64,000 nucleotides of DNA from Craspedostauros australis (lineage: Eukaryota > Bacillariophyta > Bacillariophyceae > Mastogloiales > Achnanthaceae): NCBI GenBank assembly GCA_026770025.1, contig JAMXDE010000051.1, positions 124,001-188,000 of the forward strand, read 5' to 3'. Each line of letters begins with the position of its first letter. Positions within the stretch are counted from its first letter, which is position 1. Of the stretch, positions 33,563 to 44,315 are shown in pieces. A program made the position numbers and the translations under genes. Below the pieces are notes generated by a model that did not search any database, had not been told where the DNA came from, and worked only from the letters and a program-made list of their open reading frames with translations.

Positions 33563-35317
33563 ATGACCGACAGCTCCCAAGACCAACACATTGTTCACCG
33601 CCTGGCTTCGACTGCGTCTGATGTGCTGTTGCTTTCGTCTGCGTACGGACTGCCCGTGCCATCATGGGCAACGACAGCCATCGCGATGAGCAATGGAAAC
33701 TCCAACATCTTGCATCGCTCATCTTCCGTGCACAATGCAACAGACGGAGGTGGCAACCACGGTGCAAACAACAATGGCAACGATCATGACAGCAGAACCA
33801 GCGCAGATGAATTCATGGGCTTCATTCCCTTGTTGCAAAAGCTCGTCATCTACTGGAGCATAGCCATGGTGATCCTCTCGACATCCGTGTTGTCCTACGG
33901 ACTGTTCTACATCATTGTGATGCCATCCCACGACATCACGATGCCACTCTACTTCGATTACACTGGGATGTCCACCCATCCAACTGAACATCATCTCGTG
34001 CAACAACGGTGGTTGGAGCTGCAGCAGAAACAGATGCAGATGCAGATACAGGAGGATGGAAAGCATCAACTGGAGAATGAGCTGGTACAAGAATGCAAAC
34101 AAAATGAGACAGATATCGCCATCAATCATGATGGCAACAGCAGCAAGAGCAATCACGAGGCTTGCGTCAAGTCGCAACAGGAGACAGTCTCCCACTCATC
34201 GCCATCGCATGAGCAAGCTCAAGCTCAAACTCAAGCCCAAGCACAACCTCAGATGCCACCGCAGAACCAAATACCCAATCTTTCAGTCGATCAGCGGCGT
34301 ACCTTGCAACAATCGCCTTGGGCGGCTGCCGACCTTTTCACCAAGCACACGCAATGGGAACCATACCTTGACGGCCACCACCCCAAACCACAATCTCGCT
34401 CCGTGTTGAAGGCAAACCAACCGTACACCATCGAAATCGCGCTGGAACTTCCAGAATCGCTGACCAACCAAGAGTTGGGCATCTTCGGTGTGCACGTGAC
34501 ATTGCAATCCGCAAATGGAACGACCCTGGCAACATCTGTGCGATCCACGCAACACCCGCACGAAAGTGACTGGATATCGCTGATTCGAAAATGGACGCTG
34601 CTGGTGCCACATCTCGTCGGTGCCATCCCAGAAACTCGAACCATCGTGATCCCGTCATATCATTACGTCATGGAACGAAAGCAGCATCCGTTACGGTACA
34701 TCACTGTTCGGTTAGTGAGCAGAACAAACCGGCGACGACGGACACAGCGCGCAAGCTCTCCAACAGCGTCGATAGAATGGACAACGTCTCACGATGACGA
34801 TCTCTACAATGACGATGTGCAAGTCAGCGCAGCCCACGTCCGTATTGGAAGAGAGCTGAAGCCATACCAGTACGTTCTGAAGCACTGGTTCTTCACGTGT
34901 GCGATGATTGGTATCAGCGCCATCTTCGTATTCCAATCCACCTCTGTAACCCTGCTGATGTATCTGTGGGAACGCCGACGGCAAGGTCTTGAAGAAAGAG
35001 CCAGCGATGCTTCGCTTCAACTGGAACTGGATGGATCGTTAGATTTTAATGGCGACAACAATGGTGGGGTTGAGGAACATGATGACACTGATGATGGACC
35101 CTGGTTGAGCACCTTGGTGGATGGGGCGCAGGCGTCGCCAGAGCCACAGTCGCAGTCGCAGGTGGATGCCGTAGTCGGTGAGGATGCCAACAGTACCAAT
35201 GGCCAAAACACCGACGGTGATACGACCAGCCCTGATGTCGACCCCGATGTCCACCCCAATGCTGACGCTGAAACCTCCCCTCGAAGCGAGTCTCCAGCAA
35301 TCATTGTGGATGAATAG
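33563..35317 (+). CDS. BSCL2: Seipin (lipid-droplet biogenesis protein)
   Basis: A 584-aa single-exon ER membrane protein. TM1 lies at about 89-119, ending in a PSHDI..PLYFDY segment typical of seipins. The lumenal beta-sandwich core is at about 280-440: KANQPYTIEIALELPES, N..LGIFGV, L.S.NGT.LA.S, VPSY...ME, PLRYITVRL, then VRIGRELKPYQ. TM2 is at about 440-470 (WFFTCAMIGISAIF). The C terminus is a 115-aa acidic cytosolic tail. Between TM1 and the beta-sandwich sits a Gln/Met/His-rich, low-complexity lumenal stretch (about 145-260) that is longer than in animal seipins. Seipin oligomers shape nascent lipid droplets at ER-droplet contacts. The start is the first ATG of the frame; a second Met at residue 42 is possible. 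A miniature LTR element has inserted 53 bp after the stop. Confidence 0.92.
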   Translation: MTDSSQDQHIVHRLASTASDVLLLSSAYGLPVPSWATTAIAMSNGNSNILHRSSSVHNATDGGGNHGANNNGNDHDSRTSADEFMGFIPLLQKLVIYWSIAMVILSTSVLSYGLFYIIVMPSHDITMPLYFDYTGMSTHPTEHHLVQQRWLELQQKQMQMQIQEDGKHQLENELVQECKQNETDIAINHDGNSSKSNHEACVKSQQETVSHSSPSHEQAQAQTQAQAQPQMPPQNQIPNLSVDQRRTLQQSPWAAADLFTKHTQWEPYLDGHHPKPQSRSVLKANQPYTIEIALELPESLTNQELGIFGVHVTLQSANGTTLATSVRSTQHPHESDWISLIRKWTLLVPHLVGAIPETRTIVIPSYHYVMERKQHPLRYITVRLVSRTNRRRRTQRASSPTASIEWTTSHDDDLYNDDVQVSAAHVRIGRELKPYQYVLKHWFFTCAMIGISAIFVFQSTSVTLLMYLWERRRQGLEERASDASLQLELDGSLDFNGDNNGGVEEHDDTDDGPWLSTLVDGAQASPEPQSQSQVDAVVGEDANSTNGQNTDGDTTSPDVDPDVHPNADAETSPRSESPAIIVDE

Positions 35318-35364
35318 GTCTATTGTTGGATCGTTGGCAAGACTTCGTCGTTGGGAGCGACGGG

Positions 35365-35370
35365 AGACAC
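35365..35370. repeat. Target-site duplication, left copy (AGACAC)
   Basis: Six bases directly before the left terminal repeat. They match 35728-35733 directly after the right one. Confidence 0.8.
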
Positions 35371-35463
35371 TGTCGCGACATGGGTTATAAGCGTTAATTT
35401 CTTGTGTTCATGCAGGGCGTGGACTGGCTCCGTGGTTCGATTCCGCAGCGCGCTATTTTAACA
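35371..35463. repeat. Left LTR of the miniature element (93 bp)
   Basis: Starts TGTCGCGACA and ends TTTTAACA. By eye it is identical to the right copy across all 93 bases. Confidence 0.9.
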
Positions 35464-35634
35464 TGGTAGCGTGGCCTAAGGTTCGATTCCGTCGGCTGGT
35501 ACCCACCCCTGCTACAAAAACACACAGAAACACCCGAAACTTGCCGACTGCCTACAGCGGCAGTATAAAGATAGAGTGTGGGGGGTCCTCATGATAGGGG
35601 GGCTCAAGGGCATGAATCCAAGAATTAGGGAGGG

Positions 35635-35727
35635 TGTCGCGACATGGGTTATAAGCGTTAATTTCTTGTGTTCATGCAGGGCGTGGACTGGCTCCGTGGT
35701 TCGATTCCGCAGCGCGCTATTTTAACA
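35635..35727. repeat. Right LTR of the miniature element (93 bp)
   Basis: Identical to 35371-35463. It is preceded by the purine run AGGGAGGG and followed by AGACAC. Confidence 0.9.
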
Positions 35728-35733
35728 AGACAC
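35728..35733. repeat. Target-site duplication, right copy (AGACAC)
   Basis: Matches 35365-35370. Confidence 0.8.
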
Positions 35734-36542
35734 ATGGTTCGAAATTCTCCATTTGAGAACATCACGCTTTGCGCTCGCGCCGTGAGTCGCCCACCCTATC
35801 ATGCTCCGCCGTGTGCAAGCTCTACTCTGCCCCACTTGAGCATGCACCATTCCATTCTCATGCTGAATCGTCAAGGTGAGAAGGCGCGCTTCATCGATGA
35901 ATCACTTTTTGTTGGGATGCCAACGGATCTTTCGCAGTTGGGGCACGGTCAGAGATATAGGAACATAGAAAGCGTTGCCGGTGGTGCATGAACGGCAGAA
36001 CAACCTCCGCAACTTGGGACAAGGACGACAATTTCAGTGGCGATGGCTTGATCATCTCGACAACAAGCGAGATCGCCTTGCACTGATGAAGTATCACATG
36101 TACATACCACATAGTAAGATACCGTCGAGATATTGATAACTTTTAGCGCACGCCTCAAAGCAGTCGAAGACGTGCGCTCGTCTGACGACCCGCTTGTACT
36201 TCCGCTCCTTCTCCTGCTATTTTGGTGCGTACGCACGTTACACTACAGATGGACATCGCAAAGTTGATGATGCGAGACCATGAATCTGGTGTCCAACCAT
36301 GCAAAAGCGCGAGCATCACCCAAAGATCAAAACCTGAGATCTGTTTTCCTGTCTATCTCTGCTGCTCATGTGTGCAGATGAATGGTTGATGAATGGTGAT
36401 TGCAGGTTTGACTTATATTGCGGTATGTGGACATGCAACACGATGACTAACATTAGTGATTCCACTTCCATCTGACCAACGGGTCAAGTCCTTGGTCCTC
36501 TATTCCACATGTAATAGGTACATACTAAATCATACTCCTGCA
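35734..36542. other. Intergenic region without a supported gene
   Basis: This lies between the miniature LTR element and the 3' end of the first CRAL-TRIO/DUF6824 gene. Short frames only; nothing is recognised. Confidence 0.5.
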
Positions 36543-38847
36543 TCAAAAATGCTTCTTTCGAGAGATGGGCTTGGTTGATTTGCTTGATTTCGATGGTGCT
36601 CGCCTCGTCCGTTTCTTCGTTGCTGGCGGCAATCTCCCATCTCTTCTTGCCCGAAGGAGATCCATCTCACGCTTCTTGCGGAAGCCATGCGCGGCCTTGT
36701 CCAGTGCTTCCACGTAGGTGGCCTCGACCCAACAGCCTGTCTCCTTGCACTGCTTGAGGAAACGGCTCTTTCGTTCTTGCATCTTGCGCACCAGCTTTTC
36801 AGCGACGTCCAGCTTGGACCACCTTGGTGCTTTGTCATACTCGTCGAACATATCAGCAATGACTGCCTTCATGTACTGATTGCCGGAGTGCTCTTGAAAC
36901 GGCTTTCCACGTCCCATCAGAATGTCAACTTCAGTTGGACTGCAACTTGGACGAATGCTGTTGCTTTCAATTGGATCAGCCGCCTCGAGTGGTAGCAATG
37001 AAGGAGGTTTTGGCAGCTGTGACGGCGGCAGTGGTGGCATTGACGGCTGTGGCGACACCTGCCTTGGCGAAGTTGAGAAAGTTGGTGATTCAATATCATT
37101 CTTGACTGCAGTTTCCGGGATATCTCCATACAATTCTGCTAGTTGGAGATCTACAGCAGTATTGTTGCCCTCTCCTTCAGCGTCTTGGACGACTTGCATC
37201 TCCGCTACGTCATTGGCACCATTGCGCTCAGGATGATCGTAGGGGACAGAGGAATCATCCCCGTTTCTCATCTGCGTGGTCATTGCGGTTCGGTAGGCCT
37301 CCAACGCTCTGCGTTGCATCATCCAAGCACTGGCTCCGACCATTTTGAGCATCCCCCCGGCATCGAATGGCAAGACCTGAGGTGACACACCGTGCGAAGA
37401 GAGGCTCTTGATGTTATCAGCCAGCGTACCGAAGAATGGCTTGAATCGGTGGCGAGTATGACGGGCCAGCGAGAGCTGAAAGATGTCTACCATGGCCCTC
37501 ATCTCCTTCGTATCGTCTGATAGGAGGTACATCCTCTTCACGTTCACCGGTGTGATCGTGATGGTCTGCGCGCAAATGTACATGTTCAGCCGTTGTTTTT
37601 GCGTTACATTTGGCATCATCTTGTCCAGGTCATGCACCATCACTACTCCGTTCTTCTGTGCGTCGACGTCTTCCACAACCGTCATGGCTGCATAAAACAG
37701 GGCCCGGGCATTCGCCAAGGTGTCGAACATGCTCGGGACGAACTCTGTCGCTGCGATTATGCGACCTCTATGAGCATCCTTGCATGGAAGCGGTTGTACA
37801 TTCCCAGCTTCCAGCAGAGCGATCGCTCCTGGGCACAGATCGGACAGCAGCACGTCTCTGCCGAGCACATGCGGACCGAACAAGTGCAGCTTGGCATCGC
37901 ACCAGGCGATCAATCGCATCGCGGCTTTGTATGAGTCGAAGGAGGTGCAACGCAGGAACTTGAGGCGCAGGTCCGTGTCTTCGATGTAGGCTTGATCCGT
38001 CTGCCTGGCGATGTTGTAGGCGGTCGTGTTGCTGGTCGCCATGGCCAGCTCCATCTCCATGTCGTCGAGCTTGGCGCTCAGGAACTCGGGGGTCTCCTCG
38101 CAGGGAGTGGAGCCCCCGGTGATATCCTCATGTATGTGCGTGCGTTCTTCGGATGACATCGCGTGCAGCTCTTGCGCGATGATATCAAGGACCTTGAATG
38201 TGTTCAAGATGTCCTCGTTGGTCAACCTTGTGGTTTGCTGCGCATCTGCTCCTATTGCGGCGTTCACAAATGTGTCTGCGCAAGCAGGATTGCTGTGGTC
38301 AGTATCCTCATTCGGTTTCCCGATCTGGGCATGAAGAGAGAGAGAGAGAGACGACGACGACGACGACGACGACGATGGATTGTGAGCTGTTTCAACCCTG
38401 CGGTTTCGTCGATGTTTTTCTCGTGAATGTGCTTGCGGTCTGCAACCTCAGTTTTCGACCGCTGTTGTGGTTGCATCTGTCAGTATGCGCGTCTGCGCTC
38501 GTGAATTTTACAGACGCGTCCTGTGGGATGTCGAAAACATCCATGAGGTGGGGAATCATCATCAATAGTCGCACGCAAGTGCTCACCTTTCCATCATCGT
38601 CACTAGCAGTACTGTCGCCGTGGTTACATTTGCAGCGGCCGCCAGTCTCTGAGTTGAGGCCTGATCCGAATTCAACAATTCCATTGCCAAGCATGTGACC
38701 ACTCTGCTCGCCCTCTTCGGCATCGTCATGGGATGGAAAGCAGGTTTTTAAGAAAGAGCAGTCTGGTAAGAAGAGATCATCATTATCGACGCAAAGCGCG
38801 ACCTGCTCATCGAGTTGCTGCCACTCGTCGTCGGAGAAGATGTTCAT
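36543..38847 (-). CDS. CRAL-TRIO-like / DUF6824 fusion protein, copy A
   Basis: Two exons, complement(36543..38324, 38587..38847), give 680 aa; the phase-0 intron runs GTGAGC...CATGCCCAG. Exon 1 is an acidic 87-aa leader (IFSDDEWQQLDEQ). A SEC14/CRAL-TRIO-like lobe follows at about 207-407: LRLKFLRC.SFD..AA, LFG...L.RDV.L.DL, ALFY..MT.VED...QKNGVV, RHRFKPFFGT..., and a G-SPQVLP end. This pattern is widespread in diatom proteins. A Pro-rich linker leads to DUF6824 at about 551-640 (VDILMGRGKPFQEHSGN, RFLK, GCW.E) and a basic tail. CRAL-TRIO folds bind lipids; DUF6824 is a stramenopile-enriched, possibly DNA-binding domain of unknown role. The start was chosen by alignment to copy B. Lipid-responsive regulation is only a hypothesis. 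Confidence 0.85.
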
Positions 38848-42101: not shown

Positions 42102-44315
42102 TCATAGACTTCCGTTCAGGGAGGTCACTGCAGCGCGCTTGCTCGATTTCGATGATGCTCGCCTCGTCCGTTTCTTCGTCGCGGGCGGCAGTCTCCCATC
42201 TCTTCTTGCCCGAAGGAGATCCATCTCACGCTTCTTGCGGAAGCCATGCGCGGCCTTGTCCCGTGCTTCCACGAAGGTGACCTCGATCCAACAGCCTGTC
42301 TCCTTGCACTTCTTGAGGAAGCGGCTCTTGCGCTCCTGCATCTTGTGCACCAGGTTTCCAGCGATGTCCAGCTTGGCCCACCTTGGTGCTTTGTCATACT
42401 CGTCGAACATATCAGCAATGACTGCCTTCATGTACTGGTTGCCGGAGTGCTCTTGAAACGGCTTTCCACGTCCCATCAGAATGTCAACTTCAGTTGGACT
42501 GCAACTTGGACGAGTGCTGTCGCTTTCAATTGGATCAGCTGCCACGAGTGGCAGCAATGAAAGAGGTTTTGGCAACTGTGGCGGCGGCAGTGGTGGTATT
42601 GACGGCTGTAGCGAGACCTGCCTTGGCAAAGTTGAGGAAGTTGGTGATTCAATATCATTCTTGACTGCAGTTTCCGGGATATCTCCATACAATTCTGCTA
42701 GTTGGAGATCTACAGCAGTATTGTTGTCCTCTCCTTCAGCGTCTTGGACGACTTGCATCTCCGCTGCGTCATTGGCACCATTGCTCTCAGGATGATCGTG
42801 AGTGACAGAGGTGTCATTCCCGTTTCTCGTCCGCGTGGTCATTGCGGTTCGGCAGGCTTCCAGCGCTCTGCGATACATCATCCAAGCACTGGCTCCGACC
42901 ATTTTGAGCATCCCCCAGTCATTGAATGGCAAGACCTGAGGTGACACGCCGTGCGAAGAGAGACTCTTGATGTTATCAGCCAGCGTACCGAAGAATGGCT
43001 TGAATCGGTGGCGAGTATGACGGGCCAGCGAAAGCTGCAAAATATCTACCATGGCCCTCATCTCCTCCGTATCGTCTGATAGGAGGTACATCCTCTTCAC
43101 GTTCACCGGCGTGATCGTGATGGTCTGCGCACAAATGCACATGTTCATTCGTTGTTTTTGCGTTACATTTGGCATCATCTTGTCCAGTGCATGCACCATA
43201 ACTACTCCGTTCTTCTGTGCGTCGACGTCTTCCACAACCGTCATGGCTGCGTAAAACAGGGCCCGGGCATTCGCCAAGGTGTCGAACATGCTCGGGACGA
43301 ACTCTGTCGCTGCGATTATGCGACCTCCATGAACATCCTTGCATGGAAGCGGTTGTACATTCCCAGCTTCCAGCAGAGCGATCGCTCCTGGGCATAGATC
43401 GGACAGCAGCACGTCTCTGCCGAGCACATGCGGACCGAACAAGTGCAGCTTGGCATCGCACCAGGCGATCAATCGCATTGCGGCTTTGTACGAGTCGAAG
43501 GAGGTGCAGCGCAGGAACTTGAGGCGCAGGTCCGTGTCTTCGATGTAGGCTTGATTCGTCTGCCTGGCGATGTTGTAGGCGGTCGTGTTGCTGGTCGCCA
43601 TGGCCAGCTCCATCTCCATATCGTCGAGCTTGGCGATCAGGAACTCGGGGGTCTCCTCGCAGGGAGTCGAGCTCCCGGTGATATCCTCATGTATGTGCGT
43701 GCGTTCTTCGGGTGACATCGCGTGCAGCTCTTGCGCGATGATATCGAGGACCTTGAATGTGTTCAAGATGTCCTCGTTGGTCAACCTTGTGGTTTGCTGC
43801 GCATCTGCTCCTATTGCGGCGTTCACAAATGTGTCTGCGCAAGCAGGATTGCTGTGGTCAGTATCCTCATTCGGTTTCCCGATCTGGGCATGAAGAGAGA
43901 GAGACGACGACGACGACGACGATGGATTGTGAGCTGTTTCAACCATGCGGTTTGGTTCACAGTCGGCATTGCGGTTGCAACTTCATCCGTACTATTATGG
44001 TAGGCATTTCCGCGGTCGTAGTCGTCATCATGGGCTACGGAGAATCATCGCCATTGCGCAAGTACTCACCTTGCCGTCGTCGTCACGGAGAGTGCTGCCG
44101 CTGAAGTCACAGTTGCAGTTGCTGCTGGTGTCTGAGCCGAGGTCTGATCTGGCTTCAACGATCTCATTGCCAAGCGTGCGAATATCAGGTTCACCATGAC
44201 ATGGAAAGGAGGAGTCTAACATCGAGCAGCTTGTCATGAGGAGCTCATCGTCATCGTCGCAATATGCTAAATACTCATCCAGTTGCTGCCACTCGTCGGC
44301 GGAGAAGATACGCAT
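42102..44315 (-). CDS. CRAL-TRIO-like / DUF6824 fusion protein, copy B
   Basis: Two exons, complement(42102..43883, 44070..44315), give 675 aa; the intron is GTGAGT...CATGCCCAG in phase 0. It has the same architecture as copy A, and exon 2 is exactly the same length (1,782 nt). Exon 2 proteins differ at only scattered residues through the CRAL-TRIO-like and DUF6824 regions. The last ~12 residues are unrelated (RAAVTSLNGSL versus STKPISRKKHF). Exon 1 (82 aa) is much more diverged but keeps IFS.DEWQQLDE at the start and DDDGK at the junction. An in-frame ATG at 44351 adds 12 residues; I chose 44315 because only that Met is shared with copy A. An apparent start at 43946 lies inside the intron and is not used. 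The gene is intact and probably functional. Confidence 0.85.

Follow-up and report, generated by a model that had tools for sequence, protein, structure and literature searches.

Just behind a seipin gene in the window, i.e., the whole 64,000-nucleotide stretch of diatom DNA analysed here, there is a miniature LTR retroelement (TRIM) whose LTRs appear to carry tRNA-derived sequence. We consider it likely, with good confidence in both the anatomy and the way of mobilisation, that this is a young non-autonomous TRIM whose LTRs hold tRNA-derived sequence lacking the anticodon arm, and that it would be mobilised in trans; the primer step is kept apart from this judgement. For that step we put forward, tentatively, the possibility that these TRIMs encode their own primer: a small anticodon-less tRNA-like RNA would be trimmed, CCA-tailed and paired with the primer-binding site (PBS) of its own element. 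The initial annotation of the locus did not recognise that the LTR is tRNA-derived, that a second family exists or that the PBS matches the LTR of the same element.

The annotation of the element as a TRIM is borne out by short LTRs with TG..CA ends, the position of the PBS, a polypurine tract (PPT), a noncoding interior, perfect target-site duplications (TSDs), dispersed copies and solo LTRs. With 357 bp in total and 93-bp LTRs, its size is that of TRIMs (<1 kb, short direct LTRs). Self-comparison, alignment and genome search place the LTRs at 35371-35463 and 35635-35727 (all features of the element given here are on the plus strand, except the TSDs, which have no strand). As had been claimed, the two LTRs are identical (93/93 bases); they start with TGTCGCG and finish with TTTTAACA. 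A TATAAG at LTR positions 16-21 (35386-35391) is a possible TATA-like element and is present in 30/35 LTRs of the family. The TGG-leading primer site described before is seen as TGGTAGCGTGG directly after the first LTR, from 35464, and we define the PBS as TGGTAGCGTG (35464-35473), complementary to the tail CGCGCTA of the own LTR plus CCA. The purine run, GGGAGGG, lies immediately 5' of the second LTR (35628-35634), and the perfect 6-bp flanking duplication is AGACAC, with the same letters at 35365-35370 and 35728-35733. The interior measures 171 bp (35464-35634) and was rightly taken as noncoding, as no ORF of at least 100 aa lies within the element; a 107-aa ORF in the ORF list of the window starts in the 3' LTR and extends into the flank. 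The neighbouring ORF 33563-35317 is indeed seipin (PF06775, E 1e-36), and the element starts 53 bp past its stop codon. Further along the window, the segments 36580-38409 and 42139-43956 form a direct repeat of ~1.8 kb with 94.8% identity, overlapping a 574-aa ORF (36543-38267); this is probably a gene duplication.

We have searched the genome assembly (74.8 Mb in 90 contigs) for further members of the family, here called A, and all copy counts are lower bounds. The whole element as query finds at least 22 places, comprising 13 full-length copies and nine lone LTRs; the LTR alone finds at least 35 LTRs plus one weak 22-base match, and the interior alone finds the same 13 full-length copies at 98–100% identity. 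The initial annotation had proposed such a search and had named a repeat found only at this locus as the result that would speak against it, and copies do exist elsewhere. Over the whole element, the 13 full copies are 99–100% identical; the PBS TGGTAGCGTG and the PPT GGGAGGG are kept in all of them, and their TSDs are perfect 6-bp duplications in 13/13 cases, mutually different. Since each of the 13 full copies has its own, different, perfect TSD, the element is not a product of chance. Between the two LTRs of the full copies we count only five differences in total over 13 x 93 positions. The earlier argument that identical LTRs imply a very recent insertion needs to be shifted in level: for a single copy, identity over 93 bp says little about age, but family A taken together appears young.

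The lone A LTRs show various states of preservation. Those on contigs C12 and C2 have a perfect 6-bp TSD and that on C6 has one with 5/6 bases; those on C28 and C36 have no TSD, and both are followed by TGG. The lone LTRs on C66, C60, C82 and C22 share their flanks among all four, so they probably represent one old insertion carried in a duplicated segment. Overall, the pattern of copies indicates that family A is recently active, with ordinary solo-LTR decay. No match to the element was found in plasmid records or in the viral_contigs collection. An ordinary tRNA gene can be rejected as the identity of the element, since ARAGORN predicts no tRNA either in the window or in five TRIM loci, and a SINE is excluded by the TSDs and LTRs. 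In Rfam, nothing exceeds the gathering score in 35300-35800, in three copies or in the other stretches searched, and the best hit in the element is cyano_tmRNA with 16.7 bits, on the T-arm. That is, ARAGORN and Rfam give no sign that the interior belongs to a longer cellular RNA gene, the alternative that had been raised earlier.

A second, diverged family (B) of the same plan is represented by an element which adjoins the A LTR on C28 in the opposite orientation, with an LTR of 97 bp and an interior of 170 bp. Its ends are TGTCAG..AACA, it has a TGG primer site, and AGGAAGGG stands before its 3' LTR. A genome search with family B finds 10 places, i.e., three copies (on C28, with the 3' LTR cut, on C51 and on C19), one diverged copy on C6 in two pieces, and five lone LTRs. 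The TSDs of family B, read from the flanks, are also 6 bp long; they are perfect in the C19 copy and the lone LTR of C22, and have 5/6 equal bases in the C51 copy and the lone LTRs of C2, C25, C3 and C19. Both families share an interior motif, CAGCGGnAGnATAAAnATAGAGTGTG, at 35555-35580 of the window; searched in the genome with up to three mismatches, it gives 17 matches (13 A, three B and the diverged B-like copy on C6), and the control gives none. Another pattern, the B box followed by ACATGG, has 22 matches in the genome (control 1), of which 19 are in A or B elements; those outside the known elements are at C2:2583235, C4:1532380 and C7:2224248. By their common interior motif, the A and B families are related. 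Two loci are of special structure. At C28:42070-42529, an A LTR is fused head-to-head to the family B TRIM with the cut 3' LTR, an arrangement suggestive of recombination or template switching. At C6:282150-282760, the diverged family B copy has ~170 extra bases between its LTR and the PBS-like region.

Judging from its letters, the 3' half of the LTR is tRNA-derived: it contains the B box GGTTCGATTCC, a T-arm and an acceptor-like stem, the anticodon arm is missing, and in family A a TTTT follows. We take GGTTCGATTCC to be the exact B box/T-loop of tRNA genes. It occurs in the LTRs of both families, and both interiors contain a second B box. In the seipin element, the tRNA-like segment of the 5' LTR spans 35414-35455, as delimited by sequence, folding and T-arm numbering, and is composed of a 5' acceptor-like strand AGGGCGT, a D-like arm GGACTGGCTCC, the T-arm GTGG-TTCGATT-CCGC, a 3' acceptor-like strand GCGCGCT and an A at tRNA position 73. 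Its B box is at 35434-35444 and is found in 33/35 A LTRs (13/13 of the 5' LTRs and 11/13 of the 3' LTRs in full copies). The second B box, at 35480-35490, is present in 13/13 full A copies, with GGTTCGAGTCC as the counterpart in family B. The TTTT at 35456-35459 follows the segment directly in 34/35 A LTRs and may be a Pol III-type terminator or a 3' trimming site. Family B has no TTTT, a point against the overall reading.

For comparison with real tRNAs, we have used 28 distinct ARAGORN sequences, organelle tRNAs and end variants included, among which nine nuclear types can be told by anticodon reading. With regard to the organelles, identical ORFs that we recognise as mitochondrial are found on both C83 and C89, and C90 carries psbV and a tmRNA; the assembly includes organelle contigs, one of them apparently in duplicate. 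For a plastid PsbV protein of this assembly, the best PDB matches are 8iwh, 6jlu and 6j3y, entries of diatom photosystem II, in line with a diatom as the source. Against these 28 sequences, the interior of family B matches nuclear tRNA-Ala(cgc) at 16/16 bases (E 9.6e-5), and the LTR of family B matches tRNA-Ala(tgc) at 13/13 bases of the T-arm (E 0.006) and, weakly, at 9/9 bases of the D-arm end (E 1.4). In family A, the LTR and the interior each match the T-arm of tRNA-Ala(tgc) at 12/12 bases (E 0.023). In folding, the whole family B LTR forms a junction of acceptor, D and T-arm together with another hairpin, and none of 200 shuffles is as stable. The isolated tRNA-like segments do not stand out in stability: for that of family B, 16/200 shuffles fold at least as well, and for that of family A, which takes the same topology, 186/200 do. 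When the family A LTR is folded whole, another hairpin is preferred. All 35 A LTRs have a G-G mismatch in the acceptor-like stem, and 6/35 have one more pair broken. The spacing from the T-arm to the tail is exactly that of a tRNA in the LTRs.

By tRNA numbering, counted from the T-loop, A85 in LTR A and A87 in LTR B correspond to position 73. With CCA added at this point, the tail of A (CGCGCTA-CCA) pairs with TGGTAGCGTG through nine Watson-Crick pairs and one G-U pair out of 10, and that of B (CACCTTA-CCA) pairs with TGGTAAGGTC at 9/10 positions. This tRNA-numbered offset is the best of all offsets in either LTR. At the fixed offset, shuffled interiors match as well in 10/20000 cases for A and in 241/20000 for B. 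On the other hand, shuffled LTRs reach the same Watson-Crick count at some offset in 2023/20000 (A) and 1703/20000 (B) cases; as such matches are frequent when any offset is allowed, what gives the observation its weight is that the offset is fixed by the tRNA numbering and that the two families agree. The fixed-offset test is also partly post hoc, since the inverted repeat was seen before the tRNA numbering was worked out. Still, because the tRNA-like tip of the LTR matches the PBS of the same element, the element may supply its own primer.

The comparison between the families bears on the same point. Among the seven tail-PBS pairs, two have changed on both sides between A and B, one is G-U in A and A-U in B, one is not formed in B and three are invariant. 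Across families the pairing drops, with three Watson-Crick pairs of seven for the A tail with the B PBS and five of seven for the B tail with the A PBS. In the covariation set (12 rows, T-arm included, six with a PBS and one of these from B), two double changes are reached by 12/500 column shuffles, and 0/6 slid versions show a double change; the covariation score is reached by 335/500 shuffles and the percentage paired by 58/500. All the covariation comes from the single B row, and, as A and B are homologous, they do not count as independent cases.

The same letters can be read without a self-made primer. In one such reading, which we regard as rather unlikely, the LTR tail and the PBS (CGCGCTA/TAGCGTG) pair with each other as a U5:PBS hairpin serving packaging, dimerisation or the control of priming, and some cellular tRNA is the primer. 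U5-PBS structures exist in retroviruses. As this reading uses the same pairs as the self-primer, the sequence alone cannot separate the two, and the compensatory changes fit both equally well. In addition, both junctions fold as hairpins: the A LTR-PBS junction folds as one of 9 bp at -11.3 kcal/mol, and the B junction as one at -8.8. However, a hairpin gives no reason for TGG to lie precisely at the site that would pair with CCA, nor for the T-arm, tail and A73 to be spaced just as in a tRNA; a cellular primer would also be required, and we have found none among the tRNAs tested.

With a similarly low probability, the tRNA-like sequence could be a captured Pol III promoter only, or a vestige in a TRIM driven by Pol II, and the PBS match could be chance or the leftover of a duplication of the acceptor strand into the interior. 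The PBS of B, TAAGGTC, does resemble the 5' acceptor strand TAAGGTG of its own LTR, the T-arm is repeated in the interior of both families, and TATAAG is available at LTR positions 16-21. Against a mere promoter or vestige, both families show the match at the same fixed offset, and two of its positions have compensatory changes. Moreover, TATAAG is absent from five A LTRs, which are the most diverged lone LTRs (5/9 of the lone ones), whereas all five keep an intact B box.

The initial annotation had expected the PBS to match the 3' end of a nuclear tRNA, and with the tRNAs tested (nine nuclear types) this expectation has not been confirmed. Over the first 10 PBS bases, the own LTR reaches nine Watson-Crick pairs in both families, and the best cellular tRNA reaches seven in A and eight in B (nine nuclear types). 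Over 12 bases, the own LTR has nine pairs against eight for the best of the 28 tRNA sequences in both families, and over 14 bases the values are nine against nine (iMet) in A and 10 against nine in B; that is, the lead of the own LTR over cellular tRNAs does not extend beyond about 10 bases. The method itself can find a true primer, as shown by the positive control, in which the PBS of a Copia element on C36 matches the anticodon region of nuclear tRNA-iMet at 14/14 bases.

The initiator tRNA-Met, acting through a short PBS (7 nt) or through a split one like that of Ty3, is another candidate, which we consider improbable. In its favour, it gives in A seven contiguous pairs including CCA (TGGTAGC), longer than any other exact match that starts at PBS base 1 among the 28 sequences, it equals the own LTR at 9/14 bases, the T-arm-like stretch of the interior could add contacts, and the C36 Copia does use iMet, through its anticodon region. 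For B, the longest exact run from PBS base 1 is likewise seven, with a plastid tRNA. But beyond TGG, iMet pairs at only 4/7 positions in A and 3/7 in B, compared with 6/7 for the own tail in both families, so that it fits A poorly and B worse.

An ordinary nuclear tRNA unseen here, be it outside the assembly, with an unusual T-loop or with one mismatch, is the least probable primer in our judgement: the letter-by-letter comparison covered nine nuclear types and nuclear tRNA-Arg(tcg) pairs with seven of the first eight PBS bases of B, yet a canonical T-arm followed by a fully Watson-Crick tail fitting either PBS occurs in the genome 43 times and always in the LTRs (34 A and nine B). Outside the LTRs this pattern has zero matches, with 4.0 expected by chance when the TRIMs are masked and 43 for the reversed control pattern; as zero lies slightly below the chance expectation and the reversed control gives 43, we treat this absence with caution. 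A looser pattern, allowing G-U for A, gives 58 matches, namely 34 A LTRs and 24 others, and the latter are at the level of the control (28) and below the 61.7 expected. Fourteen of these 24 came without their letters, and one of those with letters, at C2:3744026, resembles a T-arm. An acceptor-pair pattern for a cellular source of the PBS has a single genome match (control 4), which is not tRNA-like by eye.

Returning to the self-encoded primer as first choice, we can sketch how the element might move. An RNA would be made from the LTR, at least partly through promoter elements of the tRNA type (Pol III). By eye, a candidate box A (TRGCY ... YGG) can be read in both families, as TGGCCTGGTAGG with TGGCC in B and as the weak GGGCGTGGACTGG in A. 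In each it stands 6 nt from the B box of the LTR, closer than is usual in a Pol III promoter, and the interior B box lies ~50 nt downstream of it, a normal Pol III spacing. The primer would be a CCA-tailed RNA from the tRNA-like segment of the LTR, its 3' end trimmed back to the base before the TTTT. An autonomous LTR element would then provide, in trans, for uptake of the TRIM RNA into its particles, reverse transcription and integration, with an integrase that makes a 6-bp stagger; the 6-bp TSD is a property of the partner's integrase and not of the TRIM.

In the genome searches, no partner sharing the LTR, the interior or the interior motif was found outside the TRIMs. The PBS pattern has 17 genome matches, 15 of them in TRIMs (control 15), and in the two others the 91–101 bases read contain neither an LTR end nor a B box. 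The A LTR on C28 with its TGG is rejected as part of a partner, as it is fused to a family B element instead. The other lone A LTR followed by TGG, on C36, has no second A LTR on its contig in the LTR search, and it adjoins the Copia element mentioned above. This Copia (C36:241018-251154) has LTRs of ~763 bp, a TSD read as AAGAC (5 bp) and a half-tRNA iMet primer site, and its LTR ends are read as AG..CT. Owing to the 5-bp TSD, the AG..CT ends and a PBS directed to the anticodon region of iMet, it is not an obvious mobiliser of the TRIMs.

Retroelements and retroviruses primed by tRNA are thought to borrow it from the host. If confirmed, self-priming would be a route for a retroelement to escape the dependence on host tRNAs; PBS and primer would then co-evolve within one element instead of relying on a host tRNA. 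The small size of the element makes this idea directly testable. Among the matches listed in a search of titles and abstracts in the open-access literature, we have recognised no report of TRIMs in diatoms or stramenopiles, of TRIMp3, or of self-encoded primers.

Among the known systems, the SMART element (292 bp) and plant TRIMs are likewise miniature noncoding LTR elements, and the introduction of PMC10886601 describes no tRNA-derived LTR for them. Cassandra, also a TRIM, has like ours an LTR derived from a Pol III gene, as described in PMC10886601, but there it is 5S rRNA and the hosts are land plants. Copia elements with a half-tRNA iMet primer are LTR retroelements too, and the one on C36 differs in TSD, LTR ends and PBS. 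The closest likeness is to Helenus (TRIMp3; Kojima 2024, PMC10886601), a group of TRIMs with tRNA-like LTRs which that paper places in fungi, animals and Selaginella with TSDs of 5 or 4 bp; neither diatoms nor stramenopiles come up when its text is searched for these terms. The tRNA-like LTR of Helenus has been proposed to be no more than a Pol III promoter that was captured. In the elements described here, as in Helenus, tRNA-derived sequence with a B box is found in the LTR. Unlike Helenus with its 4-5 bp, they have 6-bp TSDs in 13/13 full copies, and they further differ in the diatom host, in the missing anticodon arm and in a PBS complementary to the own LTR, as compared with nine nuclear tRNA types. 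The PBSs of Helenus match cellular tRNAs, and PMC10886601, the single study found to have asked whether tRNA-like LTRs prime their own elements, reports no complementarity between tRNA-like LTR and PBS, whereas here two related families show it where the tRNA anatomy predicts. Overall, what sets these elements apart is a TRIM LTR of tRNA derivation in a diatom, together with TSDs of 6 bp and a PBS matching the LTR of the same element; if confirmed, this would extend the TRIMs with tRNA-like LTRs to the stramenopiles.
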